Below, one piece after another: positions 2,542 through 61,582 of a stretch of DNA of 64,000 bases. Location of the stretch: assembly GCA_031275285.1 (NCBI GenBank), contig JAISOY010000095.1, positions 1 to 64,000 on the forward strand. The letters are read 5' to 3'. The stretch is from Bacteroidales bacterium (GTDB taxonomy: Bacteria > Bacteroidota > Bacteroidia > Bacteroidales > UBA4181). Position 1 is the first letter of the stretch, and each line of letters opens with the position of its first letter. The notes beneath the pieces are model-generated. The model searched no databases. It worked only from the letters and a program-made list of their open reading frames with translations, and was not told the DNA's origin. The translations under genes and the position numbers were made by a program.

Positions 2542-2784
2542 ATGACACGAGAAGAAATCGCAAATAGGATCAATACTGTGTTGGCTGAAGATTTTGAAGT
2601 AAAATTAGAAAGCATTAATCCGGAAGCTTCCATGAAAGAAGTACTTGATTTGGATAGTCTGGATTATGTTGATTTGGTGGTTTTACTCGAACAAAATTTC
2701 GGACTGAGAGTTAAAGGTTCCGATTTTGCAGAAATTTCCACATTTGAAGATTTTTATCAATACATTTTCAGACATATTAACTAA
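2542..2784 (+). CDS. Acyl carrier protein
   Basis: This 80-residue acidic protein matches the acyl carrier protein family over its whole length. Ser39 in LDLDSLDYVDLV is the expected phosphopantetheine attachment site. The ATG at 2542 is chosen because the protein then begins at the usual first helix; the frame is open further upstream to 2458 but that stretch would encode an atypical hydrophobic leader. A sequence resembling the Bacteroidota -7 box (AACTTTGC, about 2511-2518) lies just upstream. The stop overlaps the reading frame of the next gene, a lipid A-type acyltransferase, which suggests a specialised carrier handing an acyl group to that enzyme rather than the housekeeping fatty-acid ACP. 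That partnership is inference. Confidence 0.9.
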   Translation: MTREEIANRINTVLAEDFEVKLESINPEASMKEVLDLDSLDYVDLVVLLEQNFGLRVKGSDFAEISTFEDFYQYIFRHIN

Positions 2785-3697
2785 AAAACACAGATCCAAA
2801 AAAGACTGGGATGGTGTTACCAAAGGTAGTTTATGGGGACACCGTTTCTTCATCTGGCTGATTAAAAGATCCGGACTTTCTTTTGCTTATGGTTTTGCCG
2901 GAGTGGTGATCGGTTATTATATTATTTTCTCACCCCGGACCTCATCGATGATCTACCGTTATTTCCGGAAAAGACATTTGTTCAGCCGATGGAAATCTAT
3001 GCGGATGACATACCGTAATTATCATTGCTTTGCCAAAATATTGATTGACAAAACGGCAATTCCCACAGGAATGGGAAACAAATTTTCTTATCAGTTTGAA
3101 AATCACGACGAAGTCACACATTTGCTCGGACAGAAACAAGGATGTATCTTCATCAGTGCACATGTCGGGAACTGGGATGTCGCCGGACATCTTTTCGGGA
3201 AACATAATACCCATGTCAACATCGTAATGCTGGACGCTGAGCACCAGCGCATAAAAAAATACCTGGAATCGGTTACAGGAGAAAAAAGCTATAAAATTAT
3301 CGCACTAAAGGATGATATGAGCCATACCTTTGAAATAGGAAAAGCGTTGATCAACAAAGAATACATCTGTTTTCAGGGAGACCGCCACATGAAAGGAACG
3401 ACCACTTTAAACAGAACCTTTCTGGGTGCTCCTGCTTCATTTCCGGCCGGTCCTTTTCAGATTGCTGCACATGCCCAGGTACCGGTAGTTTTCTTTTTTG
3501 CTGTAAGAAAACCCGGGCGAACCTATCGCTTTTGCTTTTATATCGCACATGTTGACCAAAATATGACGAAAAGAGAAATTACTGAATCGCTGGCATCACA
3601 ATATGTTTGTTCCCTGGAACAGGTATTACGGCGTTATCCGGAACAGTGGTTCAACTATTATGAATTCTGGGATAAAGAACAGGAAAATTTATCTTAA
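2726..3697 (+). CDS. Lipid A biosynthesis-type lysophospholipid acyltransferase (LpxL/HtrB family)
   Basis: The product resembles the HtrB/LpxL acyltransferases that move an acyl chain from a thioester carrier to a lipid. The catalytic HX4D motif is AHVGNWDVAG (His at about 146 of the longest form), followed by the conserved FQGDRHMKG region and an N-terminal membrane segment (LSFAYGFAGVVIGYYIIF). The frame overlaps the end of the acyl carrier protein gene. No ATG is available before 2948, which would remove the membrane segment, so translation probably starts at a TTG (2726 or 2744) or another non-ATG codon inside or just after the ACP gene; homologous proteins usually begin near the KKDWDG stretch. 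Overlap points to translational coupling with ACP. Acceptor lipid unknown. Confidence 0.85.
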   Translation: MQKFPHLKIFINTFSDILTKKHRSKKDWDGVTKGSLWGHRFFIWLIKRSGLSFAYGFAGVVIGYYIIFSPRTSSMIYRYFRKRHLFSRWKSMRMTYRNYHCFAKILIDKTAIPTGMGNKFSYQFENHDEVTHLLGQKQGCIFISAHVGNWDVAGHLFGKHNTHVNIVMLDAEHQRIKKYLESVTGEKSYKIIALKDDMSHTFEIGKALINKEYICFQGDRHMKGTTTLNRTFLGAPASFPAGPFQIAAHAQVPVVFFFAVRKPGRTYRFCFYIAHVDQNMTKREITESLASQYVCSLEQVLRRYPEQWFNYYEFWDKEQENLS

Positions 3698-5131
3698 TAT
3701 ACAGCTCAGACTAATCCCAAAGCCCAGTTCGGTCACATCATTCTTGTGTGTATAAGTAGCCACGGATGGGATACTGCTGATCTTGAGTTCCTTTTTATCG
3801 GCATCCCTGTTAAGTACGTAAAAACTAGGAGCAATCGATATGGCCACACGATGATTGATATTATAGACAAATCCGGCCTTTATCCGGGAAACAAATGTGT
3901 ATACGTCCCATGGATTATAATTACTGCCGATCAGTTCCGGTTGAAAATCAATCTTTTTACTGATACTGATCCGGGATCCGACACCTATTGCATAATATAA
4001 CAACGCATCCTCAATAAAATTACCTCCGACCGTAAAAATAGTATAGAATTTTTTCATCCCCATCTTATAGCTTAATGCTACATTGGCATAATCTGAAAGT
4101 GAGAGTTCCCACTCATCATAAAATCCTTTCCTGACAATATTGATCAATCCGATAGCTACTCCCGACTCAACAGAGTCGATCACATTGACCAGCCCGATCT
4201 GGGTTCCGCGTAAAATACCGGTATGATTATATACTCCTGCTATACCGGTTCCCGTAAATTCCTGGTTGATGTTGGTAATTCCGGAAATCTGGACTCCTTT
4301 TCCTTTTTCAGTTAAATTAACTATCCCTGCGATCCGGGCACCTTCGGATTCTTCGGAAATATTCGCAATACCACTTATCTGTGCCCCATCTGATATTTGA
4401 TTAAGGTTTACGATCCCGGAGACCTGTAATCCTCTTGAATTTTCAGATAAATTAGCAATTCCGGAAAATTGTGCTCCCTGGAAACCTCTGTTGATATTAA
4501 TAATTCCGGAAATCTGAGTACCATAACCTGTCCCATTAATATTGTATATCCCGGAAAATTGCCCGCCCCGTACATAATCTGTTTTGTTTCCGATCCCAGC
4601 TACCTGAAGCCCGGTAACTCCATCGGCCGTATTCAGCAATGATCCGAATTCCACTCCTGAAACCCAACCGACTGATCCGGTGAGGACATTCATTGATAAA
4701 TTATACCGGTAATTCCCACTTTCATTTCCATGTGTTCCGATAGGATATACAAAACTCAACTGTGCGGGAAACGTCTTGTATGATTCTTTTGATTTTGTTT
4801 CCTGAGCAGGCAGGATAACCGAGTTATTCAGTAATAACACCATGGAAGTTAACCATTTCATTTCTTTTAATCTCATGACTGATCTGTTTTTTTTATTTAT
4901 GGATTCATGAGTAATGATGTCATTTTCTGAAATGGTGGCAGTTGTTGGAGTAAAAAAAATGGAATCGCCTTGGTTCAGATGTGCTTTTTTGATGCGTAAT
5001 GTATCACTGATACGAATAGTATCATACACAATAACCGTTTCATAAACATAAACGGTATCCCTCGGGATTTCCTGAGCGGTCGACGTAAACGCCATACTAA
5101 ACAAAACAAGGCCAAGAAAAAAATATTTCAT
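3689..5131 (-). CDS. Surface repeat protein (LA_2272-type repeats) with a second internal signal-like segment
   Basis: This 480-residue exported protein has a signal peptide ending TSTAQ (about residue 20), then a linker rich in D-T-V/I motifs (RDTVYVYETVIVYDTIRI). Residues about 174-333 hold about eight tandem units of about 21 residues built on G-x-Q-x-SGI-x-N, resembling the LA_2272 surface-repeat family. The C-terminal third alternates hydrophobic and polar residues and ends in LSCILR, consistent with outer-membrane beta strands. Residues about 91-110 (MKWLTSMVLLLNNSVILPAQ) look like a second signal peptide, so an internal start at 4861 or a fusion is possible. The start codon overlaps the stop of the upstream sigma factor by 4 bp, so the two are co-expressed. 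Function unknown. Confidence 0.8.
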   Translation of the reverse strand: MKYFFLGLVLFSMAFTSTAQEIPRDTVYVYETVIVYDTIRISDTLRIKKAHLNQGDSIFFTPTTATISENDIITHESINKKNRSVMRLKEMKWLTSMVLLLNNSVILPAQETKSKESYKTFPAQLSFVYPIGTHGNESGNYRYNLSMNVLTGSVGWVSGVEFGSLLNTADGVTGLQVAGIGNKTDYVRGGQFSGIYNINGTGYGTQISGIININRGFQGAQFSGIANLSENSRGLQVSGIVNLNQISDGAQISGIANISEESEGARIAGIVNLTEKGKGVQISGITNINQEFTGTGIAGVYNHTGILRGTQIGLVNVIDSVESGVAIGLINIVRKGFYDEWELSLSDYANVALSYKMGMKKFYTIFTVGGNFIEDALLYYAIGVGSRISISKKIDFQPELIGSNYNPWDVYTFVSRIKAGFVYNINHRVAISIAPSFYVLNRDADKKELKISSIPSVATYTHKNDVTELGFGISLSCILR

Positions 5132-6297
5132 TCTTCGATAATAATAGTGTCACGTATGACAACTGTTTGATGTTGTATGATTTGTTTTTTCACGACAAAG
5201 GGAGATGATTCTTCCTCCTGGAAGCTTTTTTCGTCAACAGGTGGGTCAGGAATATCGGATACTTCGGACCGTGACGATAAAACTTTACTTTCTTTTTCTT
5301 CCGGAGAATCTGAAACGACGATCTGGACATCCTGAACCGCATCCTGTAAGTTTAAGTTAATGTTTTCCGCTGATGTATCCTCTTGTTCGAGAAATAGGTT
5401 TAATGTAGTATCCTGATCCGTTTTTTGTACAATACTGTCTGCTAATAAAATCACATTTTGAGGGACTGATTCATTCTTTACAGGTTCGTCCCCAAGGGTA
5501 ACCAAACATACCGAAGTAGTGATAGCGGCCGTAACACCGCATGCGGCAACATATGATAAAACCGAACCCTGAAAGGATGAGGCTGTAGTTTGTACAACGG
5601 TTGAAAGTGTCGAAGCCACAGGTTGTTCCAATGCAACGGATAAAAATGAAAGATCGCCGCTTCCCGGAATGGTAAAACCGGACATATTTGATTGATAGAG
5701 TTTATCGATATAGTGCATTTTTCCGGATAATACCGGGATTGCGAGGAATGCAACAGCTCTTTTCTTATCTTTTTTCTTTTTCAAAGCCTCTTCATGTAAA
5801 TATTGTTGCAATTTCTTTCTGGCGCGCGCCAGATGTGATTTAGAGGTTCCGGATGATATGCCCAGTTCTTTGCCGATCTGCACATGTGTGAACCCATCCA
5901 TTACATACATATTGAACACCAGCCTGTGATGCTCGGGCAGGTGATCTACCGCTTCCAAAAGCTCATTATTAGAGAATTCGGCAGCTTCTATTTCATTTTT
6001 TGTATTTTCAATAGCTTCATCATTGGTTTCGGCGACTAATGACATAGAATCTATCGGCACCATAGCAGGTTTTCGGCTGCGTAGGTGCATTAATGCGGTA
6101 TTAACGGTGATACGATGCAACCATCCGTCAAAGCTTCCTTTCCCCGAATAAGTGTCCTGCTTATTGATTGCAGTGATGAATGCCTCCTGTATCAGATCTT
6201 GTATCAGCTCATTATCCGAAATATATCGCCTTATAACACCTCGTAAAGCAGGGGCATTCCTCCGATAAGCATCATCCCAGAATTCCTTTTTGTTCAT
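5128..6297 (-). CDS. ECF-type sigma-70 factor with transmembrane C-terminal extension
   Basis: Residues about 1-175 are an ECF sigma factor: region 2 (ELIQDLIQEAFITAINK, then SFDGWLHRITVNTALMHLR) and region 4 with a helix-turn-helix (FTHVQIGKELGISSGTSKSHLARARKKLQQYL). Unlike a normal ECF factor of under 200 residues, the protein continues to 389. A basic stretch (KKKKDKKR) is followed by a single hydrophobic segment (about 243-268, VLSYVAACGVTAAITTSVCLV), an acidic low-complexity region, and a tail ending VVIRDTIIIEE. This arrangement suggests a sigma factor tethered to the inner membrane with a periplasmic tail. No separate anti-sigma gene is present. The tail's DT-V/I motif recurs at the start of the 4-bp-overlapping downstream surface protein. 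Membrane tethering is inference. Confidence 0.85.
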   Translation of the reverse strand: MNKKEFWDDAYRRNAPALRGVIRRYISDNELIQDLIQEAFITAINKQDTYSGKGSFDGWLHRITVNTALMHLRSRKPAMVPIDSMSLVAETNDEAIENTKNEIEAAEFSNNELLEAVDHLPEHHRLVFNMYVMDGFTHVQIGKELGISSGTSKSHLARARKKLQQYLHEEALKKKKDKKRAVAFLAIPVLSGKMHYIDKLYQSNMSGFTIPGSGDLSFLSVALEQPVASTLSTVVQTTASSFQGSVLSYVAACGVTAAITTSVCLVTLGDEPVKNESVPQNVILLADSIVQKTDQDTTLNLFLEQEDTSAENINLNLQDAVQDVQIVVSDSPEEKESKVLSSRSEVSDIPDPPVDEKSFQEEESSPFVVKKQIIQHQTVVIRDTIIIEE

Positions 6298-6399
6298 TCA
6301 ATGATTACCATGGTTTTGTTGATATGATGCCAAAAAATAAAATGGTGGCAACTATCAATCATATTTTTTTACAAAATTATGGTAATTATTTTGGATATT

Positions 6400-6798: not shown

Positions 6799-6890
6799 AA
6801 GCACCCAGTGTTATTTATTGTTTTCTTAAGTCACACTGATCAAATTGATTACGTTCAGCAAATAAGGCATTAATTGTTTTTTATTACTTA
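6799..6890 (+). repeat. Dispersed 93-bp repeat, copy C
   Basis: Copy C has a degenerate palindrome (AGCACCCAGTGTT from 6800) but a conserved body (TTGTTTTCTTAAGTCACACT, GATCAAATTGATTACG). It ends at TTATTACTTA, 16 bp before the ftsH start codon, so it occupies the ftsH promoter or leader. It is a direct repeat of copy B. Confidence 0.9.
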
Positions 6891-6906
6891 CTTAATATCT
6901 AAAGAC

Positions 6907-8733
6907 ATGGAAGAACAAAAAAAATCACCCGGCAATCCGTACTATACTTTTACAGTATTGTTGATTATTCTTATGCTTCTGAATACGATTGTATTTCCAC
7001 AATTGTTCAAGCAAAAAATTATTGATACGGATTATGGTACATTTATCAAAAAAATAGAAGATGGAGAAGTAAAGAAAGTCAATATAGACGAGCACAAAAT
7101 CTATTTTTCAACCATTGACGAAAGTGATGCTGAAGCGATGTACCAAACAGGGGCAGTCAACGACCCGGATCTTGTTGATCGTCTGTTGAACGCTACAAGC
7201 CCTAATGATAGTGGAAATATCGAGTTCACAAAGTCCATTCCCCGTGAAAACTCGCCTATATTAAATTTTATTTTGATGTGGGTATTACCAGGATTGATCT
7301 TTTACCTGATCTGGAGATCTATGAGTAAGATGCTGCAGGGAAAGATGGGAGGAAATGCCATGACTTTAGGACAAAATAATATTAAAATATATGCCGAATC
7401 GGAAATTAAAACCACATTTGCTGATGTCGCCGGTCAGGAAGAAGCCAAAGAAGCCCTTACAGAAATCGTGGATTTTCTCCATAACCCCTCTAAATATACC
7501 GGAATAGGGGCCAGTCTTCCAAAAGGAGCATTATTGGTGGGCCCTCCGGGTACCGGAAAAACATTGATCGCGAGAGCTGTTGCAGGGGAAGCCAAAGTGC
7601 CGTTTTTTGCTATTTCAGGTTCTGAATTTGTACAAATGTTTGTAGGGATGGGTGCCGCCAAGGTACGGGATCTCTTTAAACAAGCCAGTGAGAAAGCGCC
7701 TTGTATCATTTTTATTGATGAGATAGATACTATTGGTAAAAAGCGGGACAGCACCATAGGTAATGATGAGCGGGAACAAACACTGAACCAGCTTCTCACG
7801 GAAATGGATGGTTTCGATGGAAAAAAGGGTGTGGTGATACTTGCAGCGACCAATCGTCCGGAAACCCTGGATAAAGCTTTACTCCGCCCCGGAAGATTTG
7901 ACAGGAGGATAACAATGGAATTGCCTGATATTGAAGGAAGAAAGGAGATTTTAAAAGTACACCTGAAAAAGATCAAACATGATGAGATCGATATTGACTT
8001 TATAGCACGGGCAACGGCCGGCTCATCGGGTGCGGAAATTGCAAATATAGTAAATGAAGCAGCTTTAAGGGCAGTACGGATGAACCGGGCAACGGTAACA
8101 ACATCCGATCTGGAAGAAAGTGTGGAAGTGGTAATTGCTGGAGCACAAAAGAAGGGAAAAGTGTTATCCGGTCATGAAAAAAAGATAGTGGCTTATCACG
8201 AAATAGGACACGCCCTGGTAGCAGCCAAGCAAAATCATTCGGCACCGGTACATAAAATTACAATTATCCCAAGGACATCCGGGGCATTAGGGTATACCAT
8301 GCAGGTGGATTCCGGGGAACAGAATTTAATGACCAAGGATGAATTATTGAACAGAATTGTGACACTGACCGGCGGGCGGGCAGCGGAAGAGGTTATTTTT
8401 CAAATAGTTACCACAGGCGCCTCGAATGATATTGAACAGGCCACGAAAATCGCACGTTCGATGGTTACACGTTACGGGATGAGTGAGCAATATGATATGA
8501 TGGCTCTCGAAACAGTAAACAATCCCTATCTGGGATCTGATTCAAGTATCGCTTGTTCTCCTGAAACTTCCGCTTATGTCGACCAGGAAGTATTACGGAT
8601 TATCAAAAATGCTCATGAAAAAGCAAAGAACATGATCAATGAGCATATAGATAAAATGCATGAATTGTCCGCATTTCTTATGGAAAAGGAAACAATTACC
8701 GGAGATGAGTTCATGGAAATTTTGAATCGATAA
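6907..8733 (+). CDS. ftsH: ATP-dependent zinc metalloprotease FtsH
   Basis: This 608-residue membrane protease has two N-terminal transmembrane segments (about 10-30 and 115-140) flanking a periplasmic domain, then an AAA+ module with Walker A GPPGTGKT (about 212-219), Walker B IIFIDEID and the second region of homology (ATNRPETLDKALLRPGRFDR). The zinc protease motif is HEIGH (from about 431), slightly unlike the usual HEAGH but retaining both His and Glu. It degrades misassembled membrane proteins and regulatory substrates. The ATG at 6907 is preferred; an upstream TTG at 6874 falls inside repeat copy C. A small gene follows after 11 bp. The C-terminus is short, as in some secondary FtsH paralogues, so this may not be the only ftsH in the genome. 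Confidence 0.95.
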   Translation: MEEQKKSPGNPYYTFTVLLIILMLLNTIVFPQLFKQKIIDTDYGTFIKKIEDGEVKKVNIDEHKIYFSTIDESDAEAMYQTGAVNDPDLVDRLLNATSPNDSGNIEFTKSIPRENSPILNFILMWVLPGLIFYLIWRSMSKMLQGKMGGNAMTLGQNNIKIYAESEIKTTFADVAGQEEAKEALTEIVDFLHNPSKYTGIGASLPKGALLVGPPGTGKTLIARAVAGEAKVPFFAISGSEFVQMFVGMGAAKVRDLFKQASEKAPCIIFIDEIDTIGKKRDSTIGNDEREQTLNQLLTEMDGFDGKKGVVILAATNRPETLDKALLRPGRFDRRITMELPDIEGRKEILKVHLKKIKHDEIDIDFIARATAGSSGAEIANIVNEAALRAVRMNRATVTTSDLEESVEVVIAGAQKKGKVLSGHEKKIVAYHEIGHALVAAKQNHSAPVHKITIIPRTSGALGYTMQVDSGEQNLMTKDELLNRIVTLTGGRAAEEVIFQIVTTGASNDIEQATKIARSMVTRYGMSEQYDMMALETVNNPYLGSDSSIACSPETSAYVDQEVLRIIKNAHEKAKNMINEHIDKMHELSAFLMEKETITGDEFMEILNR

Positions 8734-43386: not shown

Positions 43387-46191
43387 ATGGCCCATAGTAT
43401 ACTGATTCGAAAGTCCCTTATGTTATTTATAACAAATGGATTAAGAAAAAAAATCACTAGAAGCTTTTTTTCCTTGACATTGCTATTAATTTCTTTTACT
43501 GTCGTAGCTCAAGTTGTACCCAGTGGCATAGTATTATCTGCCACAAAAATCCAACCTGGAACTACAGAATTTACTATCACAGTAAGTTATCCCACTCCAA
43601 TGAACATGACAGATCCAAATCAGCCTGTCATCAACTTTTTTGATCAAATCAGCCAGAATATTAACACACAAATAGCTAAAACACTTACATTAAGTAGTGC
43701 AATCTGGACAGACTCATTCGAACTTATTTTTACCTATTCGGTCATTCAAACCAGCAAAGAAAATGATTTTGACGTTAGGGCCACTGTAACAGGAGGAATT
43801 TCTCAAGGAGGACAAACCGGATCTCAAAAAACAAGTACTGAATTCACTATCCAAATGAATCAGATCGCCATTGATCAGGTAAGTTTTTCAACGAACAATA
43901 GCAGCAATAGTCTTATTATAGGCTCCACTGATTTAACAATTATAGTCACTTACGAAACAGCTATGGATCCCGATCCTGCCAAATATCCTCAAATATCTTT
44001 TCCTGTTGAATACAATACGGTTATCATTCCTGTAACAAAAAATTGGGAAAGCGGCAATACGGTGCTAAAATGTACTTATACGATTACAGAAAACACAAGT
44101 ATGGATGGTATTTCAGGAAATTACACTATCTCAGGAGGAGCTGACCCATCTGATGTAACCGGATCAACACGAACAGAAAGCTTTACAGCAGATTTTGTGT
44201 CACCAACCATTGCTAATATTACATCCGGCAACATTTCTTCAACTACCACCAGCCATACTATCACTGTACAATATTCCGAAGATATGGCAGCTGTGGATCC
44301 TGTAATCACTATAGAACCGGTAGATGCAAACGGGATATTTACATTCCAAAGCGGAAACTGGAGCAACGCTAAAACCTATGTAGCCACATATACTGTCAGC
44401 CGGACGGATCCAGGTGTATACACTACAGCCACAGTAAAAGTAAACAGTGGAAAGGATGTTGCAGGAAATCCCCAGGTAACTGAAGGCACTACCAGCATTA
44501 ATATCGACCAACGTACAATGGGTGTAACAGCCAGCATGTCGCCATCAATTATCCAGAGTACCGGCGGAAATACAGCAACGTTGACACTCCTTTTTAATGT
44601 TGAAATGGACATAGCTTTTATCCCAAGTATCACTTTTACACCAAATACACAAAACGTACTCACAGTCAATTCTCAATCCTGGACGGACAATAAAACATAT
44701 ACGGTTACATACAATATAGATAAATCAGACAGGGTGGCGATAAATAATATTGCAGTAGGAGTAGACGGTACCAAAAGTATCAATGGAGAAAGCATGCCAT
44801 TACAAACTATTCCGAATGTGTTCAGCATCGATTTTAACAGCCCTGCATGTGTTGTTACTTTTTCACCTGAAGTAGTTGTAAAAGGAACACCCACCATTAC
44901 TTTTACCGTTACCTATAACATGGAAATGGACCCCAACTCCAAACCTGAAATTACTTTTGGAAATGCTCTTGATCCTGAGACCTATTTCCCTTCCCCACCC
45001 CAATACAACTGGTCGGCTGATAATAAAACATGTACCATCACCTATAATGTTGTCCACCAACAGGTCCAATATCCATCTGTGATCATCATTGTTTCAAAAG
45101 GAGAAAGTGCAGCAGGCAATGCGCAATTCGAAGGAAGAGCAGAAAAAAACCTGGTGATCGATATGCTTGATATCCTTGTTACACCTTCTTTGAATAACCA
45201 TGTTACCTGTAATGACAACACCCAGGTCGTTACATTAAGTTTCAATCAACCAATGACAGAAACTTCAGATAATATCATCAGTTTTCCAGGGTATGACTCA
45301 AATGGTTTTCTTGAATTTTCAAGCATTGAATGGTCCTCTGATAAGAAAGATGCAATTGTTACTTACAATGTTCATAGCAATATAGCATCTAATCAAAGTA
45401 ATATCCCCATTGAAATCGGCCCGGTAGCTAATTTCTTGGGCCGGGTATATCCTGGAGAAACTATTGCTAATCTTTTCTCTGTAACATCCGATCCTCCTGT
45501 CATTGATGATGCCCTAACAGCATCACCGAAATGTTATGATCATGAAAATGGTGAAATCCATTTAAGTATATCCGGAGGAAACCAACCATATACCTATCAA
45601 TGGATAAAAAATGATGAAAACTATCCATCAGCATCCGGACCGGAAAACACTTCGCTAGGAGCAGGTCAATACCAAATAAAAGTTTTCGGGACTGACAATT
45701 GCTTTGCTCTTTATGAAACGGAACTACTTAATCCAGAACCCATATCACTCATCGCTGAAATAAAACAACATGTTGAAAAAATTGCGGATGGCGAAGTATT
45801 ATTAAAGACAGAAGGTGGAACCGAACCATATAGTTATTTTATCAATGGAGTATCTGAAGGTGGAAAAACCGAATATGCAGGACTCGATATAGGAAACTAT
45901 ACATTTGAAGTGAGTGATTACAATAATTGCACGGCACAAACGATCGTTGAAATAAAAGATTACCGTACTCCTACCATCTTCTCCCCTAACGGAGATGGCA
46001 TCAATGATATCTTCATGGAGGGGTATACAATTGAAATTTTTGATCGGAGTGGAACATTAGTTTATAAAGGAAATAATGGATGGGATGGGTACTATAAAGG
46101 TAAACTGGCACGACCGGCTATTTACTTCTACATAGTCACCTTCCCGGATGGAATGAAGAAAAAGGGATCAATTCAATTATATAAAAAATAG
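43387..46191 (+). CDS. T9SS type-B-sorted adhesin with Ig-like and SprB repeats
   Basis: A 934-residue cell-surface protein. A signal peptide near residues 14-43 ends VVAQ. About six tandem Ig-like units of roughly 105 residues follow (each with the pattern T-x-T-I-T-V-x-Y-x-x-x-M-D and a W-x-x-x-x-x-T-x-T-Y-x-V strand, about 46-700). Two SprB-type repeats come next (about 709-781, with GEIHLSISGGNQPYTYQW; about 786-858). The C-terminal about 75 residues (IFSPNGDGINDIF, IEIFDRSGTLVYKG, WDGYYKGK) are the T9SS type-B sorting domain, cleaved or retained during export. It is the first gene of a 17-kb rightward cluster. The ligand or surface role is unknown; adhesion or gliding is inferred from family. 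Confidence 0.88.
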   Translation: MAHSILIRKSLMLFITNGLRKKITRSFFSLTLLLISFTVVAQVVPSGIVLSATKIQPGTTEFTITVSYPTPMNMTDPNQPVINFFDQISQNINTQIAKTLTLSSAIWTDSFELIFTYSVIQTSKENDFDVRATVTGGISQGGQTGSQKTSTEFTIQMNQIAIDQVSFSTNNSSNSLIIGSTDLTIIVTYETAMDPDPAKYPQISFPVEYNTVIIPVTKNWESGNTVLKCTYTITENTSMDGISGNYTISGGADPSDVTGSTRTESFTADFVSPTIANITSGNISSTTTSHTITVQYSEDMAAVDPVITIEPVDANGIFTFQSGNWSNAKTYVATYTVSRTDPGVYTTATVKVNSGKDVAGNPQVTEGTTSINIDQRTMGVTASMSPSIIQSTGGNTATLTLLFNVEMDIAFIPSITFTPNTQNVLTVNSQSWTDNKTYTVTYNIDKSDRVAINNIAVGVDGTKSINGESMPLQTIPNVFSIDFNSPACVVTFSPEVVVKGTPTITFTVTYNMEMDPNSKPEITFGNALDPETYFPSPPQYNWSADNKTCTITYNVVHQQVQYPSVIIIVSKGESAAGNAQFEGRAEKNLVIDMLDILVTPSLNNHVTCNDNTQVVTLSFNQPMTETSDNIISFPGYDSNGFLEFSSIEWSSDKKDAIVTYNVHSNIASNQSNIPIEIGPVANFLGRVYPGETIANLFSVTSDPPVIDDALTASPKCYDHENGEIHLSISGGNQPYTYQWIKNDENYPSASGPENTSLGAGQYQIKVFGTDNCFALYETELLNPEPISLIAEIKQHVEKIADGEVLLKTEGGTEPYSYFINGVSEGGKTEYAGLDIGNYTFEVSDYNNCTAQTIVEIKDYRTPTIFSPNGDGINDIFMEGYTIEIFDRSGTLVYKGNNGWDGYYKGKLARPAIYFYIVTFPDGMKKKGSIQLYKK

Positions 46192-46213
46192 TCTGACATA
46201 CATATCATTATCC

Positions 46214-47938
46214 ATGAAAAGAATCATCACCGTCAGTATCGTTACTCTCGTATGTTTGATCGGGTCATTTGAAGTTAATGCTCAATCGCAGTCCTTCAAG
46301 TCAAAGTTAAACGGAACACCCTATTTTGAAAAGAATGAATATGCCATAGCTATTCCTGCATACGAATCCGATCTAAAAAGGAAAAAAATCACCAGAAATG
46401 AAAGCGCCTATATAGAGACTCAAATAGGTATCAGTTACTACTATTTAAACAATCCAAAAGAAGCAGTCAACTGGTTAAAAAAAGGAATGAATAAGAATTA
46501 CCAAACGGCTGAAACGTTCTGTATCTATGGATTATCACTCCAAAAATTAGAAAAATACGAAGATGCATTGGTTGCATTTAAAGAATGTTTACAAAGAGAT
46601 AAAAATTACCCAAATATTGATCTCTATATCCAGTCATGTGAATACGCCTTATCGCATCCTGACCCGAATACGGAAACCAAAATGCGCTCTTCAAAGATCA
46701 ATACGGACGGAAGTGAATATGGGATTTCACCTGCAGACGGAGAGCTTTTCTTTTCCAGAGCATCCACCAAAGGACGTGATATTGACCCACGTACAGGTTT
46801 AGGATTTACGGAAATATTTTCCACAAAACTGGATGGCAATGACCTCACATCACCAAAGAAAGAAAAAGCATTCATGAAGACCTATTACAATACCGGTATA
46901 TTTGCATACGACTCTGCAACCAATCATATGTATATGACTACCTGTGATCCTAAAAGCGGAAAATGCGGTATCTACCGGAGCACTTACAATCGTAGAAAAT
47001 GGGAAAAGCCTGAACCCTTTTTTATAAATGATTCTCATGATATGGCACACCCGGCTTTGTCAAAAAATGGAACACGATTGTATTTTTCATCCAATGCCGC
47101 CGATGGAAAAGGAAAAACAGACCTCTGGTATGTCGATCGTAAAAGCGAAGATCAATGGGGAGAGCCGGTAAATTTAGGAGAAAAAATCAATACATCCGGA
47201 AGAGAAGAGTTTCCATTTATTGAAGGTGATAGTATCCTATATTTTGCCTCAGACGGACATCCCGGTTACGGCGGACTGGATATTTTTGCTGTCAGTATTG
47301 ATGGTGATGAATTCGGAGAAGTAATCAATCTTGGTCGCCCGTTTAACAGCGGCGCAGATGATTTTAACCTAATCAGTTTTTCCAATAAAGGATTACTTAT
47401 TTCTTCCCGGAATACGTCAAAAAGCGATGATATTTATATATTTGACAAAAAAGATCTACCTTCTCCTCCAAGAAAACAAAAACCAAAACCGGAATTAGAG
47501 CCGGAACCAGAACCTGAAATTATTCCGGAAGTCATCCCGGAAATTATTCCTGAAAAAACAACACCAAAGCCCACTCCTGTAAAACCGGCAACAAATGTTG
47601 TGGCCGTGATCTATTTTGATTTTGACAGATTTGTCCCTCAAAGGGAATACAGGAATAAATACAAAGAAATTGTGGCATTAATGAAAGCTTATCCTAATGC
47701 TGAATTTGAGATCTCAGGTTATGCGGATAGCAGGGGAGGACCTGAATTCAACCAGGAATTATCCGAGAAACGCGCTGACTATGTTGCAAAACGATTGGTT
47801 GACAGGGGTATCAAACAAAATAGCCTTGTTATCAAGGGCTATGGAAATACCAGACCTGCAATACGCAATGCGATAACCGAAGAAGAATTCCAAAAGAACA
47901 GGCGTGTTGAAATACGCGTTATTCAAACATCAAAATAA
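46214..47938 (+). CDS. TPR/propeller/OmpA protein, PorE-like
   Basis: A 574-residue exported protein with signal peptide ending VNAQ. TPR-like repeats (about 30-140) precede a PD40 beta-propeller (about 150-410: HPALSKNGTRLYFSSNAADG, FPFIEGDSILYFASDGHPG), a Pro/Glu-rich linker (about 415-460), and an OmpA peptidoglycan-binding domain (YFDFDRFVPQ, ISGYADSRGGPEFN, KGYGNTRPA). Unlike the protein at 10192 it lacks the carboxypeptidase-regulatory-like module. It starts 22 bp after adhesin 1 and ends 2 bp before a PorP/SprF gene. It probably links the surface export apparatus to peptidoglycan. Confidence 0.87.
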   Translation: MKRIITVSIVTLVCLIGSFEVNAQSQSFKSKLNGTPYFEKNEYAIAIPAYESDLKRKKITRNESAYIETQIGISYYYLNNPKEAVNWLKKGMNKNYQTAETFCIYGLSLQKLEKYEDALVAFKECLQRDKNYPNIDLYIQSCEYALSHPDPNTETKMRSSKINTDGSEYGISPADGELFFSRASTKGRDIDPRTGLGFTEIFSTKLDGNDLTSPKKEKAFMKTYYNTGIFAYDSATNHMYMTTCDPKSGKCGIYRSTYNRRKWEKPEPFFINDSHDMAHPALSKNGTRLYFSSNAADGKGKTDLWYVDRKSEDQWGEPVNLGEKINTSGREEFPFIEGDSILYFASDGHPGYGGLDIFAVSIDGDEFGEVINLGRPFNSGADDFNLISFSNKGLLISSRNTSKSDDIYIFDKKDLPSPPRKQKPKPELEPEPEPEIIPEVIPEIIPEKTTPKPTPVKPATNVVAVIYFDFDRFVPQREYRNKYKEIVALMKAYPNAEFEISGYADSRGGPEFNQELSEKRADYVAKRLVDRGIKQNSLVIKGYGNTRPAIRNAITEEEFQKNRRVEIRVIQTSK

Positions 47939-47940
47939 CC

Positions 47941-48897
47941 ATGAAGAATATCATATATCAAAAATCATATATGAAAGGAAAATACATCTTCTTCGTTTTA
48001 TTTCTCCTTTTCTTATATGGCCCACATCTGGTAAAAGGGCAAAACGATATTTTGCTCACTCAACAATGGTTGTCGAGAATCAATCAGAATCCTGCAGCTA
48101 CAGGTAATTCTAATAATATTGATGTTTATGTATTACTGAGACAACAATGGAAAGGCTTTGATAATGCACCGGAGACACAAGTGGTCAACATTCATAATTA
48201 TTTTGACCGGATCCGTTCCGGATTAGGTCTAACGGCTACGCATGATAAGCTCGGCGTAGGTTATAATATGACCAATGTAAAGTTAGCATACGCCTTTCAT
48301 GTAAACCTGGGCAGTAAATGGTTATTATCACTGGGATTATCAGGAGGCATCATACAACAATCCTATGACCCGAGCAAACACTTCTACATACAGGATTCAG
48401 ACCCGGAACTATCCCAAATGGAAAAAGAATCACAACTGAGTCCTGATGTTGATTTCGGATTTGAATTAAGTTCACAAAGAATATTATTAGGTGCTTCAGT
48501 TACACATTTATACCGTTTGCCGGAAGATCAAACAACACTAAAAGTAGCACAACAGTACCATGCATATGCCCGTTATACGCAACCACTCGGATCATCGTTC
48601 GACCTGATTGCCGGAGTGCGTGGCAGCAATTTCGACAATGCCATATTTTATGATATCAGCCTTACAGGTTTATTATTGAAAAAATACTGGATAGGAGCAG
48701 CATTCAGGCCGGATAATGCTGTCGCAGGAATGGTTGGTCTCCAGCTTGGATTTATACGTTTAGGATATTCCTACGATTATTCGATTGGAAAAGTAAATTC
48801 CATTGCCCAGAATACCCATGAAATAATGGTATCATTAAAAATAGGAAAACCAAAGAAAGCAATCAATACCAAATCACCACGTTTCATTGAAGAATAA
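47941..48897 (+). CDS. PorP/SprF family type IX secretion membrane protein (1)
   Basis: A 318-residue outer-membrane beta-barrel protein of the PorP/SprF family. The mature N-terminus after the leader has the family signature DILLTQQWLSRINQNPAATG, followed by RQQWKGFDNAPETQVVNIH. Barrel strands alternate through LGLSGGIIQQ and LGASVTHLYRLP. These proteins are needed for export or attachment of adjacent type-B-sorted proteins such as SprB. It is the third gene of the unit led by adhesin 1, 2 bp after the PorE-like gene. The Met at 47971 is a likely alternative start that gives a more typical signal peptide. Confidence 0.92.
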   Translation: MKNIIYQKSYMKGKYIFFVLFLLFLYGPHLVKGQNDILLTQQWLSRINQNPAATGNSNNIDVYVLLRQQWKGFDNAPETQVVNIHNYFDRIRSGLGLTATHDKLGVGYNMTNVKLAYAFHVNLGSKWLLSLGLSGGIIQQSYDPSKHFYIQDSDPELSQMEKESQLSPDVDFGFELSSQRILLGASVTHLYRLPEDQTTLKVAQQYHAYARYTQPLGSSFDLIAGVRGSNFDNAIFYDISLTGLLLKKYWIGAAFRPDNAVAGMVGLQLGFIRLGYSYDYSIGKVNSIAQNTHEIMVSLKIGKPKKAINTKSPRFIEE

Positions 48898-48924
48898 TAT
48901 TTATCACCCTTAAAAATATTTATT

Positions 48925-49476
48925 ATGTCCCCCGTTAGATACAGACAAAGACCCGTTACACCAAAAAATACGGAAAAACCTGAGAAATCAACATCAAAAA
49001 AAAATACAGGCACCATTATCATAGTCCTCCTCCTCGGTATAGGAATAGGGATAACTATCGGTATCCTATTTGATCCTATAAAAAAAATATTCGTAAAACC
49101 AGCTGTAGAAGAAACAATCATCATAACACCAGCACCGCTACCAGAATCAGAGCCTGAAGAAATCAACGAAGAAGTCCAACCGGAACCAGAGCCTGTTGCT
49201 CAACCGGTGGCCGTAACACATAAACAAGAATCTTCTTCATCGGTTCCCACAGGGTTTTATATTATCATAGGCAGTTATCACCAAAGATACAGTGCTGAAC
49301 AACTGGTATCGGCAGTAGAAAAAGACATTGAAGCCAATGTTCTACATTTTAAAGAATTAGGACTATATCGAGTATCAGTAGGTAAATATGACAGGCTCAA
49401 CAAAGCTTACAATGATTTAAGCAGTATCAAGGATCTGGACGGCTGTGAAGAAGCATGGGTGCTGGAAAACAGATAA
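48925..49476 (+). CDS. Membrane-anchored SPOR-domain protein
   Basis: A 183-residue protein with a basic cytoplasmic N-terminus, one transmembrane helix (about 32-50, TIIIVLLLGIGIGITIGIL), a Glu/Pro-rich periplasmic linker (about 65-100) and a C-terminal SPOR domain (about 105-180, GFYIIIGSYHQRYSAEQLV ... LGLYRVSVGKYDRLNKA). SPOR domains bind denuded peptidoglycan at the division septum. The gene lies inside the T9SS adhesin cluster, 27 bp after the first PorP/SprF gene, suggesting it places or anchors the export machinery at the cell wall. That link is inferred from gene order only. Confidence 0.85.
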   Translation: MSPVRYRQRPVTPKNTEKPEKSTSKKNTGTIIIVLLLGIGIGITIGILFDPIKKIFVKPAVEETIIITPAPLPESEPEEINEEVQPEPEPVAQPVAVTHKQESSSSVPTGFYIIIGSYHQRYSAEQLVSAVEKDIEANVLHFKELGLYRVSVGKYDRLNKAYNDLSSIKDLDGCEEAWVLENR

Positions 49477-49608
49477 AGACACGACGGCTGAAAAAACTGT
49501 GTAACTATTTATACTAAAAAGCGTATATATATAGTATCTAGGGGATATTTCAATCAACGAATAAATCTATTCGTCTGTTATTGATTTTAATATTTTATAT
49601 TAATAGGA

Positions 49609-52600
49609 ATGAAATCATTGAGCGCAGTCATAAAAAACATTTTCATCTTCGTTATATCATTTTCATTTTGTTTACCAGGATTGGCACAAAGCGGCATAAA
49701 ACTGGCAAAAGAAGCACAGATAGTCAGTTCAGATATTAATGGGAATATTAATATCAGATTGATTTACAGAGTGGAAAATTCCGGAGCAGATACACTATAC
49801 ACTGTTCATTTAGAAGATGATATAAAATTTGCATACCGGAATGTTGCTACGATCTCCTTTGTTTCACGTACGCTTAGCAGCACGCTCGGAGCAAGCACAA
49901 AACTCACCCTAAATACAAGTCACACCGGAGGGTCGGAAAATATCTTTGCTACTGGCACCGGCATTTATATACAACCAGGTGAGACAGCAACAATTACTAT
50001 CATCTATAACATAAAACTTAACACCAACTACCCACAAAATGGGATCCAGGGATTTACCGCCTATGTATCTGCTAAAAATAGAAATAATATTTTTGTAGAT
50101 GCAGAGTCGATTAACGGAAGTACACCTGGCGGAGGTAATGGTGCACCTGGCGTGGTAACGCCCATTAATATAGCTATGATCACCATTACAGGGCTTCCTC
50201 AGCGTACTGAAGCTGAAAGTGATGCCAAATTAATGGAATTTATCATAGAGAGAAGAGGATACAAAGCAGAGACTACTAATCTAGTAGCAACATTCGCGGG
50301 AACCACTTACGGATCAAATACATTACCGGCAACTTTAGGAACTGCCGCAGGCTCGGGAATAGATGCCTATTCTTCATTTTTGACTTATAATCTGACATTC
50401 AATAATGGAGAAGATATTAAAACACTGGAAATGCAGATCGTAGATGATGATGTTTATGAACTGAAAGAGGTATTTTCACTGACTTTAACCGGACAAGCAT
50501 CTAACATCTCGTTAAATCAGCGCATAGTATACACCACCATCAATAGTGAAGAACCCAAACCGACCATCACGCTTTCTGACTTAACCGGGCAAAATAAATA
50601 TACGGAAGGAACAAGCAATCCTCCAGCCGGAACGCCTGTAACAGTAAAAGCAACATTATCATATCCGCATTATAAAAATCTAACCGTCCCTGTAGCACTA
50701 GTGTTCGGAAGCGGAACAACCATGGCTGATGCCGCAGATTTCAATGGCGCTACTTCCGGTAGTTTTACTTTTAACAGCCAAGCCACGGAAAGTACTTTTA
50801 CTTTTAATATCAAACAGGACGATATTGAAGAAGAGCAGGAACAATTTAGCGTAAAAGCTACAGTCAACAGCACTGATTTAAGTGATATAGGAAAATCATC
50901 ATTGACTTATTATATCCGCGATGATGACAAACGTTTAATCCAATGGATAGGAAAAGCTCCGGAATCAAAATTTAAGGAGTTACATAAAGGAACCGGTATA
51001 AAAGATACCGTAGAAATTGATTTCTTTATCGCCGAAGGGAATTTCAGGATACCAAGGCTTGAGATCACCATGCCTGCTGGTGTGCAGTACGAAGGAGATT
51101 TTCAAAATCTTGCCGCAGATAACCGTATAGATTTCAAGTATGACTCTAAAAGCGGTAACACTTATTATTTTGTTCCGGTCTCTGCCACAGAATTGATAGC
51201 CAACCAAAGAGTGCGTTTTAAGTTTACAAAAACAGCACTGTGTTCTGCTACACAGGGAACGAAGGAAGATATAGTCAAACTAAGACACACCCTCCTAAGT
51301 GGAACAAATCTATATGCAAAAGACCTGATCACCTCTAAAACAGAACAAAGGTATTCTTACATGGTCAAAGAGGGAAATCTGGTTATGCAATTAACTAAAG
51401 GAGAAACCCTTATTTTCCCCAGCGAAACAGATAATTCCAAACCACAGGAAATCAAAGTACAAAACACTGGTTTAGGCGTAATTACAAGTCAGGATCTGGC
51501 CATCGAGATAGAATTCGACCAAAAAATCATAGAAAAACTGGATAACCTAACCATTAATGGTATCCCAGCCACTTATGCCACATCTACTCCTTACCAAAAA
51601 TTCACCGTCACCATTACAGATGCTATCCTTCAAACCATAGGAAACAAAGATAAATTATTCGATCCCAATGAAAATATTATCATTAGTTATGATGTAATCA
51701 CACGTTCAAAAGCTGATCTGAAAGGTACCAACCTTAATTGTGGATTGAAAAAAGAAACCATCCGGTCCTATTGGGCATGTAAAAAACCAGCACAAACACT
51801 TACCGTAGGTGTAGAAATATACCGTCCCGCAGGAAAGCCTGTTCTGGATCTTCAAATAATAAAACCAACAACATTTACCGAAGATGGTTCACCAAATAAT
51901 TTTATTATAAAACTGACTAATACCGGAACCAGTGATGCTTTCAATGTGGCTGTTCCAATGACAATACGTACAGCCGATACCAGCCTGGAATGGATCATTC
52001 CCAATGAGGTAACTGTCCAGATTGACGGAGGACCGGTTTATACTGTCTCTGCCAGTGGAAGTAGAGCCTCAAGTGTTAGCTTCAATTTCTCCAACATCAG
52101 TACCGGCTTATATATCCCGGTAGGAAAAACCGCTGAAATCATCTATCCGATTCGCCGGGATGTTGTTAACAGATATAGTTCATTAACCAATGACACCGAA
52201 CCGGATGTCTTGACCAACAAATATTTTTCCTACCTGTATCTAGGCAACATCACATATACTGACGAATGTCAGGAAGCAGGAAAAGCTGGAAGATTAGGGG
52301 ATTACTTTATCAATGGAAGTGGTAATGTTGCTGCATTTGCTCCTTTATCGGTCAGAAATACCAATTTAATCGACATGAGTGATGATCCGGGAGTCAATTT
52401 ACCCGGTTCATATACCATGGAATTTGGTGATTATTTCCATGTTTTTCCCATGCATGAGACCAATAACTGGTTCGATGGAGAATTGGAGATCAATTTGTAT
52501 ATGGAATCCAATGTCCCGCTTACTGCACCCGACATGCAGTTTGACGGGATCGTCCTGACAGGTAATGATGGCAGCCAGTTGAAATGGGTATTGGGAGACC

Positions 52601-55600
52601 TGAATTCTTCTATTACTGTATTTCGCGTAGATGCATCAGATATAGAAACTCCTCAACCAAATGTTCCGGGTATAGGCGATCCTCGCCAAAATCGTTGGCG
52701 CATCAAGATACAAAACCTTGATAAAAAATACCTCAGTAAAAATGCAAAAATCGAACTGAAGGTAATGGGGGTCTGTACCGATAATAAGACAAAAATCAAC
52801 AAAGTACATTATACTGTTAATTATAAAACCAAAAACGGTGTCTTACATAAAGTCTATAAGGCAAGGACATCCACTACAGTTAAATGTACCAACGAGCCCG
52901 GAGTCAATCTAAAGAGATATTTCAGTCAAAGGATCAATGTGACCAAAGGCGATCAAAATGATAACGGTATTGATAACGGAGGTAAGATAGGAAGCGGCGG
53001 GGATACCGATACCACAGGGTTAAGCAAAAAAATAAGATTTGATCGTTTATATGATCTGGATACCATAATCTTCAAAACATCATCCAGGTTAATGGAGTAT
53101 CCTGCCGATCCTACAAAATGGAAACATCTCCATATTGTACTGAGTGATAAAAACCGCAAGATGGATGCTACTAATTTTATCCATCAGGAAACCAAAATAA
53201 AACTTTACCAAAAAATTACCGGTACATATTTTGAATACCTTAACCATACCATCACAGGAGCAGGAAGTGTTCAATATCAACCTAATTATAATGGTTCCAA
53301 TCATCTCGGATTACACTGGGATCCGGGTACGCCAGCTTATTTGTTCGGAGCCTATGACTCAATCGCCATAGAATCGGTATGGACCACCCGGGTAGAAACA
53401 GGAGTGACCGGTAGTGCAAGAACACAGGAAACCAGTAATTATAAATTCTGGACCTATGTACATGATGTGGAAAGAACCAATTGGTATGATGATTTCCCAG
53501 TGGGAACAGACCCAAATATGCCTATAGCTCAAATGGATGCCTATTTTGTTGGAGAAATGGACCGCTATACCATTGGTTATACAACCAACAGCGTTCCGAT
53601 TCATCAGATGTTAAGCCCTCAATATACCACTGCACAGAATGCTTCTTACAGCCATTTGTTAACTATTGGTACGTACGGATGGAACAACACTACATTCACC
53701 AATGAGCTACGCCAGCCTTATTATGTGAATGATGTAAAATTCACCCTTCCTTATGGTTATGTATTGGAAGGTGATATGAAATTTTTAAATATCGGATCCA
53801 CTAAGGAGAACGGCATCTACAAACACAACTTTGTAAAAGAATTCCTGAATGGAAATAAGCAAACAGCAGTAACGCTCACGAATTACTGGGATACTGATAT
53901 TAAAGAAATACACAATACTTCAAAGGATCAGATTGCTGACGAAGGATGGAGCTCTAATGCCTATATACCCATAAAAGTAACTCCAAGAGCCCCGATAGGA
54001 CTGTCGTCTGTGTCAGTTGATCTGTCTTATGCATCTCCTCCTGATGCCGGACTGGATCCATTTAATCAATCCGTTTCATTTTACCTGAATAATAATGCCG
54101 CCAACTTCCTGGTAGAATATTTTGACAAAGAAGCTTACGCATATAATGATACGGTCAGATGGACTGTTCGTGTAACCAATCCGTCTTCGGTTGAAGATGT
54201 CATGAACTGTTGGCTGTATCTTGAAGGAGACGGATCACTTAAGCCGTTATACGTTGTGGATCATAATAATAATATTGTCACCACACCTAATAAAGGGTAT
54301 CAGGGAAGATGGATCAAAGTAGCGGACAAATTATTGAAATCTTCAGCACAATATTATACCATTGTCGCCCGGTATGATCCGTATGTATGCGACAGGGACA
54401 GTCTGGTAGTAACGCCCTGGTTCAACCAGACAACCGATCCGATGAATTATACATTGAACGGCACGGCCAATTATTACCAAAGTAATCCATTGGATACCAC
54501 CACCAATATCAATTCACCGACTTACGACCTGTGGGTGGGAATTACGCAATCCATCTATATCAACCAGTTTGAATCTGCCATCAATGGGATGGTCACGCAA
54601 CTGATGGATACACCTAAAAAACCCGAAGCACCTGTTACAGGAGGAAAATATGATAAGGATGAAATTTCGTTAGGTAATGATTTCCCTGTTGAGATCATAC
54701 TCAACACTACAGATATGATAGGAGTGAAGGATGTGAATATCGATATAAGCATCCCAAAAGGACTGAAATATGTAGAAAATAGCGGTTATTACCAATGGAA
54801 AGGGGATACGCTCAAGTTCGAAACAACAGCAGAAACAAAAATGCTCGGATTCGACGGAGATGTTAATACTCCTGGAGATGTTGAACGTACCATCAACATA
54901 ACATTGAAAGATTTCATCAACAGGGATACCATACCCGGTATATACAATACCGAATTTGATGATAGGACTGTATTTTTAAGATTCTTACTGAATCCTCAAT
55001 GCCAGGGATTTGATGCCGATAGTGCGAGTATTAATGTACAAATGCATGCGAACAGACTCTGCGGAACACCTGCTTATGGTGATCAGGATACCATTACCGG
55101 AGGACAGATATATCTTGAAGGATTCCGGTATTATAAACTTGACCAGGATCTATATCCACCAGCCGGACCGGACTTTGCATTGTGCAATAACCAGGACAAA
55201 GGAACCCTTACTGCAAGGTTATACCGTATCGGAGCCGGAGCACTGCAAAATGACTCCATTGTCCTCAAACTTCCGAAACAATTTACCCTTGATTTAACCG
55301 CCAATCCGGGCAATTCTATCCGGTACGACAAATTGAACACCGATCCGACGGATGCCGGGACACCATGGGATATGGATGGAGAGCCGATCAAATACAATTT
55401 AATTACTGATGACCCGGATTCCACTATTATCAAATGGGCAGTTCCAAGAAAATATTCTGAAAACTACAAGAAAAATATACGTATCGAATATGAGATCGAT
55501 ATTAAGGTAGATCAGAATAATTTCCAACCATCCGACTATAAGTATGATCAAGTAGCCACGATATATGTAGTCAGCGGGGATAACCCCACCTGTACGGGAA

Positions 55601-58554: not shown

Positions 58555-58574
58555 AGCATAAGGGGAATTGAGCA

Positions 58575-61090: not shown

Positions 61091-61582
61091 ATGATCCATA
61101 AAAGAAAGTTCCGCTTTTCAACAGGAAAATATTTATTGCTTTCCGCACTTGTATTTTCATTTACTTTCCATGTATCGGCCATTAACGATAAAGATCCCGG
61201 TAAGGAATGTAAAGAAGAAGGAGTTATCCCAGATTACCGTATCAGACAAGGAAGTTCACTTCCTAAAGAAGTAGCAGTTTCTACCGGTTCATTAAATAAA
61301 ATACCTGAAAAAAAAGTTCCCGGAATAATTTCATATAATAATGATCTATATACTAATGATCTTAAAAGTAACGGCTTTTTTATTAACAACAGGTTCCGCG
61401 AAAAAAGCGACCGTAATCAGCTCATATTACTTGATGGGAAAGAAATATCTCAACAACAATTTGCAGAGATTAAGCCGGAAGTAATCAAAAGTTTCTCTAT
61501 CTCCAAGGAAGAACGGTTGGTGGAAGAGTATGGAGAAAAAGCAAAAAATGGCGTGATCTCTGTCATCACAAAATCCGAATAA
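61091..61582 (+). CDS. Small exported TonB-plug-like protein
   Basis: A 163-residue protein with an N-terminal signal (LLLSALVFSFTFHVSA). The C-terminal half (from about residue 108) has the pattern of a TonB receptor plug fragment: LILLDGKEISQQQFAEIKPEVIKSFSI, then EYGEKAKNGVISVITK. There is no barrel. Similar isolated plug-like segments are found in some Bacteroidota secreted proteins and BlaR1-type proteins. It could interact with a receptor or energising complex, but no function can be stated. It is followed by the C_GCAxxG_C_C gene after 21 bp. Confidence 0.75.
   Translation: MIHKRKFRFSTGKYLLLSALVFSFTFHVSAINDKDPGKECKEEGVIPDYRIRQGSSLPKEVAVSTGSLNKIPEKKVPGIISYNNDLYTNDLKSNGFFINNRFREKSDRNQLILLDGKEISQQQFAEIKPEVIKSFSISKEERLVEEYGEKAKNGVISVITKSE

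Follow-up and report, generated by a model that had tools for sequence, protein, structure and literature searches.

The sigma factor gene and its exported partner

The sequence analysed here is a 64,000-nucleotide stretch (the window) of a Bacteroidales genome (contig JAISOY010000095.1, assembly GCA_031275285.1). On its reverse strand lie two overlapping genes, which encode a sigma factor of the extracytoplasmic function (ECF) type with a long C-terminal tail, and an exported protein, referred to below as the partner. The parts of the sigma factor open reading frame (ORF) are listed below; TM denotes transmembrane, AF2 the AlphaFold2 model, and pLDDT its predicted local distance difference test score.

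5128-6297, reverse strand: ECF sigma factor fused to an anti-sigma-like segment, a TM helix and a periplasmic tail; 389 residues
6070-6267, reverse strand: sigma region 2, residues 11-76 (Pfam, E 6e-17)
5809-5967, reverse strand: sigma region 4, residues 111-163 (Pfam, E 9e-15)
5758-5781, reverse strand: basic patch KKKKDKKR, residues 173-180 (translation)
5620-5718, reverse strand: anti-sigma-like segment, residues 194-226, MHYIDKLYQSNMSGFTIP... (profile homology to separate anti-sigma-like proteins at their N-terminus; AF2 helices)
5500-5559, reverse strand: predicted TM helix, residues 247-266 (AF2 and hydropathy)
5233-5496, reverse strand: acidic disordered linker, residues 268-355 (mostly pLDDT < 50 in AF2; charge; conservation)
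5131-5202, reverse strand: conserved C-terminal strand VVKKQIIQHQTVVIRDTIIIEE, about residues 366-389 (1.90 bits, the highest conservation within the tail)

The ORF fits an ECF (group IV) sigma-70 protein, with regions 2 and 4 present and 1 and 3 absent, and the Pfam models Sigma70_r2 and Sigma70_r4_2 as well as TIGR02937 scored above cut-off within residues 11-163. An earlier, sequence-only reading of this DNA had described about 210 extra residues carrying a basic patch, one hydrophobic segment and an acidic tail. This description was borne out: about 219 residues follow regions 2 and 4, with the patch KKKKDKKR, a single TM-type helix (best Kyte-Doolittle window 1.95, at residues 250-268) and, between this helix and the C-terminal strand, a linker with a net charge of about -16. 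No convincing family match was obtained for these 219 residues with Pfam and TIGR02937-type models. Two known anti-sigma types were ruled out for the tail, the FecR/STN type by the lack of any FecR, DUF4974 or STN match, and the zinc-finger type by the lack of a zinc-finger match and of any cysteine in residues 171-246.

In the AF2 model of the sigma ORF (53 sequences) the sigma core was confident, and the block of the anti-sigma-like segment, with helices at residues 196-205 and 217-224, was fairly so (pLDDT 70-88). The TM-segment helix was modelled at low confidence, and nearly all of residues 269-362 had a pLDDT below 50. Foldseek searches with this model matched sigma/anti-sigma complexes, e.g. 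AlgU-MucA and SigW-RsiW, which confirms the sigma fold and nothing further.

The sigma ORF overlaps the partner ORF by 4 bp (ATGA), as the sequence-only reading had it. The partner consists of the following parts:

3689-5131, reverse strand: exported partner, 480 residues
5075-5131, reverse strand: signal peptide predicted from the sequence, residues 1-19, with cleavage between ...TSTA and Q
4985-5059, reverse strand: DT module DTVYVYETVIVYDTIRISDTLRIKK, residues 25-49
4163-4612, reverse strand: 15-residue tandem repeats from residue 174, each modelled as a 13-residue strand and a 2-residue turn
3692-4084, reverse strand: C-terminal beta strands, about residues 350-480 (AF2)

The partner had been described as a surface repeat protein with about eight LA_2272-type repeats of 21 residues, a claim that did not hold. 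Autocorrelation gave an identity of 41% at a lag of 15 residues against 11% at a lag of 21, and nine exact repeat starts were found between residues 174 and 294. Membership of LA_2272 (NF047436) was rejected on the score, 19.3 bits against a cut-off of 25, as well as on the repeat length; the VC2662_fam model likewise remained below its cut-off (29.9 against 140 bits). The AF2 model of the partner (6 sequences, mean pLDDT 61.8) shows strands of 13 residues joined by 2-residue turns into a regular meander, followed by longer C-terminal strands. Barrels dominated the top Foldseek matches, none of which reached E <= 0.001, and the partners of some relatives matched OMP_b-brl weakly. The partner is probably an outer-membrane beta-barrel and not a free surface repeat protein. 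No match to a TonB receptor, nor to FecR, DUF4974 or STN, was found by Pfam in the partner or the sigma factor, or in the eight relatives' proteins examined.

The anti-sigma-like segment of the tail and its relatives

Most relatives were obtained by a sigma-anchored scan of named genomes, which yielded 80 loci (L numbers below) in Bacteroidota and one Chlorobiota metagenome-assembled genome (MAG). An order-wide search with an early profile of four tails gave matches in 8 of 393 genomes, and relatives are also present in the same genus (G002, G005) and in other families of the order. In a tree of sigma domains, the closest named relatives of the window sigma factor came from an Odoribacter and a Culturomica MAG.

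The sigma factor was fused to a long tail in most of the 80 loci. In five loci (L107, L110, L118, L119, L125) it was unfused, and was followed by a separate single-TM protein of 144-166 residues that carries the motif YID or FID close to its beginning; four of these five loci have a three-gene layout, the third gene encoding a DT protein with a hydrophobic N-terminus. A profile of 44 fused tails matched the five small proteins at E 2e-12 to 3e-5. More weakly, it also matched the N-termini of Dma-like proteins (discussed below) encoded directly after unfused sigma factors, at E 2e-5 for L037 and at 1e-4 and weaker for L015, L023 and L025, whereas the best reversed decoy reached only E 0.34. In the separate anti-sigma-like proteins the aligned part starts at residues 3-10, indicating a sharp fusion boundary. 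Since the tail segment is homologous to the N-termini of separate membrane proteins beside unfused sigma factors, the anti-sigma factor that seemed to be missing is probably fused into the sigma protein, and the assignment of residues 194-226 as this fused anti-sigma factor can be made with high confidence. The sequence-only reading was right that no separate anti-sigma gene lies near the sigma ORF (none was seen among the neighbouring ORFs), but it had overlooked the anti-sigma-like segment inside the tail.

In the sigma-domain tree, 63 fused members grouped in a single clade, and at least one other fusion was placed outside it, among the unfused three-gene and Dma-type sigma factors, so that at least two independent fusions have taken place. 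The tail contains two conserved islands, the anti-sigma-like segment (1.60 bits) and the C-terminal strand (1.90 bits), separated by the acidic linker. The linker varies in both length and sequence (0.71 bits, 61% occupancy), as would be expected if the whole tail were a variable membrane anchor with no part in signalling. The two islands, the repeated fusion and the conserved neighbouring gene are at odds with such an anchor, which is very improbable.

Some further observations concern the relatives. In the fused proteins of L005, L033 and L034 a linker methionine (PMSDELNYID, GMNENFNYID) stands at the start position of the separate anti-sigma-like protein (MMKDDLKYID; L107, 4556-5047), and may possibly be a fossil start codon of the fusion. 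Downstream of the three-gene loci L110, L118, L119 and L125 two more conserved proteins that look exported are encoded (about 345-414 and about 390 residues). Locus L097 (3989-6298) encodes a fused sigma factor of 769 residues whose C-terminal half differs and might be a further sensory domain attached by the same type of fusion.

DT strands and the embedded candidate promoter motif

Eight partners, largely unrelated to each other, could be aligned with confidence at their mature N-termini only (D-T-x-Y...D-T), and apart from Met1 the residues of the DT-(V/I) pattern were the only invariant ones. This is the pattern that the sequence-only reading had found common to the sigma tail and the partner. 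The bodies of the partners range from meanders of 15-residue repeats (window, L046-L049, L065) to other barrel-like proteins. Among the 80 named loci there were 43 DT-tailed fused sigma factors, and a DT partner adjoined all 41 of those whose neighbour was not cut off, downstream of the sigma factor in 39 loci and upstream in two (L088, L099); because there are several near copies among the loci, fewer than 41 of these cases are independent. Thus the search proposed earlier for sigma factors with the same tail and neighbour gave a positive answer throughout the testable relatives, and in place of a variable extension with unrelated neighbours, tail and neighbour were conserved together across Bacteroidota. 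For this reason, membrane tethering of the sigma factor and its functional coupling to the neighbour are strongly supported by the sequence comparisons.

The reverse search was made with a profile of the DT module alone, independent of the sigma factor, on 9 genomes of the genus and 296 of the phylum. Six matches had E < 1e-9, all six of them beside a fused sigma factor and three outside the order, while the weaker matches (E > 7e-6) were unrelated proteins. A second DT-like match in the same genome as the window lies inside an AsmA-like protein and is unrelated. On average the two strands are of opposite charge, +2.4 for the sigma tail and -3.1 for the partner, and this usual combination of a basic and an acidic strand fits strand pairing.

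A sister group of fused sigma factors (Cytophagales and some Chitinophagaceae), termed plug-type here, carries a different C-terminal domain, which ends in KYGxxGxxGxxEI, and the 80-locus scan showed no DT partner for it. In the window, a small exported protein encoded on the forward strand (61091-61582) ends in EEYGEKAKNGVISVITKSE, like the C-terminal end of the plug-type sigma factors.

Upstream of the sigma factor and within the partner gene, the window contains two copies of a bipartite motif, TGC(C/A)ACC-N12-13-(G/A)CATC:

6324-6350, reverse strand: P1, candidate autoregulatory ECF promoter, TGCCACC-ATTTTATTTTTTG-GCATCAT, 27-53 bp before the sigma ATG
4914-4940, reverse strand: P2, second copy of the motif, within the partner coding sequence (TGCCACCATTTCAGAAAATGACATCAT)
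3689-4876, reverse strand: putative nested gene, with an in-frame ATG 39 nt after P2 (M86; alternative M91 at 4861), a signal-peptide-like start MRLKEMKWLTSMVLLLNNSVILPAQ, and then the barrel

These are the only exact matches to TGCCACCATTT-N8-12-CATCAT in the window, against 0 in 100 shuffles. A relaxed form of the motif was found upstream of 28 of 43 DT-type and 21 of 24 plug-type fused sigma factors, compared with 3 of 22 unfused ECF sigma factors and about 5% of random windows. The strict form occurred 52 times in 0.54 Mb of loci, always on the sense strand and never antisense: 27 matches lie before the sigma factor, 13 within a partner gene and 2 beyond one, 6 inside the gene of a plug-type sigma factor and 4 elsewhere. 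In the genome of the window (5.5 Mb) there were seven matches to a looser motif, two of which are P1 and P2; two of the other five sites were viewed, neither was convincing, and a wider regulon in this genome is unsupported.

The copies within partner genes (window, L046-L049, L052-L054, L058, L059, L061, L065, L066, L085) are always in codon phase 2 and are followed by an in-frame ATG, usually 24-54 nt on, which usually starts a signal-peptide-like sequence. Two third positions are fixed although the amino acid varies, the T before GCC ACC (S/T/P/A, 14 of 14) and the C before ATC (D/S/N/R/G, 14 of 14). The resulting synonymous-site bias has a log10 P of about -26, uncorrected for kinship. Because these flanking third positions are fixed while the amino acids differ, the constraint acts on the DNA. 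In L055 and L057 the partner lacks the embedded copy, and the motif stands between the partner and the following exported gene (L055 6191, L057 6174). In plug-type sigma factors (L062, L063, L064, L072, L075, L089 and others) it is found inside the sigma gene itself, ahead of an in-frame ATG; the sequence from this ATG begins like a signal peptide and includes the C-terminal domain described above.

The internal motif might alternatively be a feature of the protein (A-T-x5-6-I-I), considering that residues A, T and I of the site are conserved and that the related partners of L051 and L055 keep a similar peptide without the DNA motif. This would not account for the fixed third positions, for the same bipartite motif with the same spacing in non-coding DNA upstream of the sigma factor, for the lack of antisense matches, or for the copies between genes in L055 and L057, and is quite improbable. 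P1 is very likely a real promoter, and P2 is likely one too, with somewhat less certainty; the conservation of the motif suggests that the copies likely represent an autoregulated promoter and one for a nested exported product.

P2 points to a barrel without the DT module as a target product. On this view the partner would only be a regulated outer-membrane protein outside the sensing path, and the DT sequences independent tethers to other parts of the envelope; DT-like stretches do occur in unrelated proteins (L161, L165, L166). Against this explanation, DT tail and DT partner strictly co-occur despite unrelated bodies and in both gene orders, the plug-type group lacks both, and the three-gene version has kept the same pairing. 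It is considered improbable, and a DT latch between tail and partner remains the favoured reading, though not by far.

A possible relay across the envelope

The arrangement is best compared with Dma, a Bacteroidota-only control of ECF sigma factors, in which an N-terminal anti-sigma segment is followed by a TM helix, a disordered tether and a C-terminal barrel (PMC13088901). The order of parts is the same, a single TM helix and a long disordered tether are present in the sigma ORF, and the fused segment is weakly but significantly similar to Dma-like N-termini (E 2e-5 to 0.05, for the Dma-like proteins of our data set). They differ in how the parts are divided. In Dma, anti-sigma factor and barrel form one chain beside a separate, adjacent ECF21 sigma factor, whereas here sigma and anti-sigma form one chain that ends at the DT strand, and the barrel-type strands belong to a separate partner with a matching strand. 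A sigma domain at the N-terminus has been reported for Dma3 only, at the two-gene locus bt_2778-2779 (PMC13088901). This locus may be close to, or the same as, the present arrangement. No mention of an embedded promoter or a nested barrel was found in the passages on Dma that were consulted.

Three other systems share features with the locus. IutY of Pseudomonas putida (ECF243), a sigma/anti-sigma fusion acting in cell-surface signalling (PMC5411451, PMC8999054), likewise joins an ECF sigma factor to a TM and periplasmic anti-sigma part and acts with an outer-membrane receptor, but it has FecR/STN and a TonB-dependent receptor with a signalling domain, neither of which was detected here by Pfam. 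In FoxR/FoxA, the C-terminus of the anti-sigma factor contacts the N-terminus of the receptor in the periplasm, and this contact protects from proteolysis before the signal (PMC11637429). The same end-to-end geometry is proposed here, except that short strands would meet instead of folded signalling domains. ECF48/52/53 sigma factors of Actinobacteria (e.g. SCO4117) end in a TM extension that is regarded as a fused anti-sigma factor (PMC8999054), with a zinc-finger anti-sigma and a carbohydrate-binding domain and no barrel partner. Sigma/anti-sigma fusions (IutY, ECF52/53, Dma3) and anti-sigma proteins reaching from inner to outer membrane (Dma) are therefore known. No paper describing the present arrangement was found, and as far as could be ascertained its new elements are the promoter embedded in the reading frame of the sensor and the split arrangement, which combines exchangeable barrels with a conserved pair of strands.

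Taken together, the results suggest, with a probability of roughly 0.6, that the locus encodes a trans-envelope signalling pair, i.e. a split sigma/anti-sigma relay spanning both membranes and activated by release of the sigma domain. The first protein would comprise the sigma domain, the anti-sigma-like segment, the TM helix, the disordered periplasmic linker and a basic, beta-type C-terminal strand, and the second would be exported and probably form an outer-membrane beta-barrel, with the matching DT-type strand at its mature N-terminus (mostly acidic, near neutral in the window). In the resting state, the anti-sigma segment and the membrane tether would hold the sigma domain inactive in cis, as suggested by the homology of the segment to separate proteins and by the genetics of Dma (PMC13088901). 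The C-terminal strand of the first protein would pair with the N-terminal strand of the second, linking the inner and outer membranes like a two-piece Dma, and this latch would probably shield the sigma tail against proteases, as in FoxA/FoxR. Upon a signal, the outer-membrane partner would change state and the strand pairing would break; the tail could then be trimmed and cleaved within the membrane by an RseP-type site-2 protease, as in IutY, freeing the sigma domain to transcribe its own operon from P1 and, from P2, the nested exported barrel without the DT module. The one-component, tethered sensor proposed earlier thus stands with regard to the tether and the coupling to the neighbour, but is replaced by two proteins, with an anti-sigma-like segment in the tail.

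The analogy with IutY makes cleavage a plausible activation step, and proteolytic release of the sigma domain is slightly favoured. The same parts could work without it, if the anti-sigma segment let go of the sigma domain in a conformational switch of the ECF41 type while the protein stayed in the membrane. The segment does form a separate conserved block before the TM helix, and the extensions of ECF41 and ECF238 function without proteolysis (PMC8999054). Such a switch is nevertheless unlikely, since IutY, the characterised TM-bearing sigma/anti-sigma fusion, uses cleavage by Prc/RseP (PMC5411451), and chromosomal promoters would presumably be poorly accessible to a membrane-bound sigma factor.

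Several observations weigh against the proposed relay. The AF2 models are single-chain, and the packing of the segment on the sigma domain and the pairing of the strands are hypothetical. For several members, homology with the N-termini of Dma-like proteins is weak (E 1e-3 to 0.05). The DT module of the window itself is near neutral (net charge about +1), and in the subgroup L111-L117 tail and module are similar in charge, so that opposite charge is a trend and not a rule. About a third of the DT-type sigma factors lack the motif, none was found in the Flavobacteriales-like loci L162-L164, and the nested ATG is not followed by a signal peptide in L053, L054 and L066. The genome contains two M50 site-2 protease genes, but M50 proteases are near-universal, and these genes are therefore not specific support for cleavage.

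The two genes are flanked by a convergent acyltransferase-like ORF (2726-3697) and a divergent ftsH-like ORF (6874-8733). Elsewhere in the window (43387-59543), large exported proteins that appear on inspection to have gliding/T9SS-type C-terminal ends are encoded in a run, beside PorP/SprF-like proteins.

A class I anti-sigma domain is encoded close to only about 6% of the ECF sigma factors of Bacteroidetes (PMC7406223). For the control of most others, the family described here suggests one general answer built from interchangeable parts, in which sigma factor, anti-sigma factor and barrel may be separate, fused or split. More tentatively, a Bacteroidota-wide architecture can be envisaged in which an inner-membrane fusion is latched by DT strands to interchangeable barrels, and the freed sigma factor fires a copy of its own promoter embedded in the sensor, giving a nested, latch-less barrel as feedback. 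If this is true, the in-frame promoter would provide feedback in a compact form that is conserved between orders, and the family as a whole suggests a hitherto undescribed route by which signals at the cell surface reach the genes.

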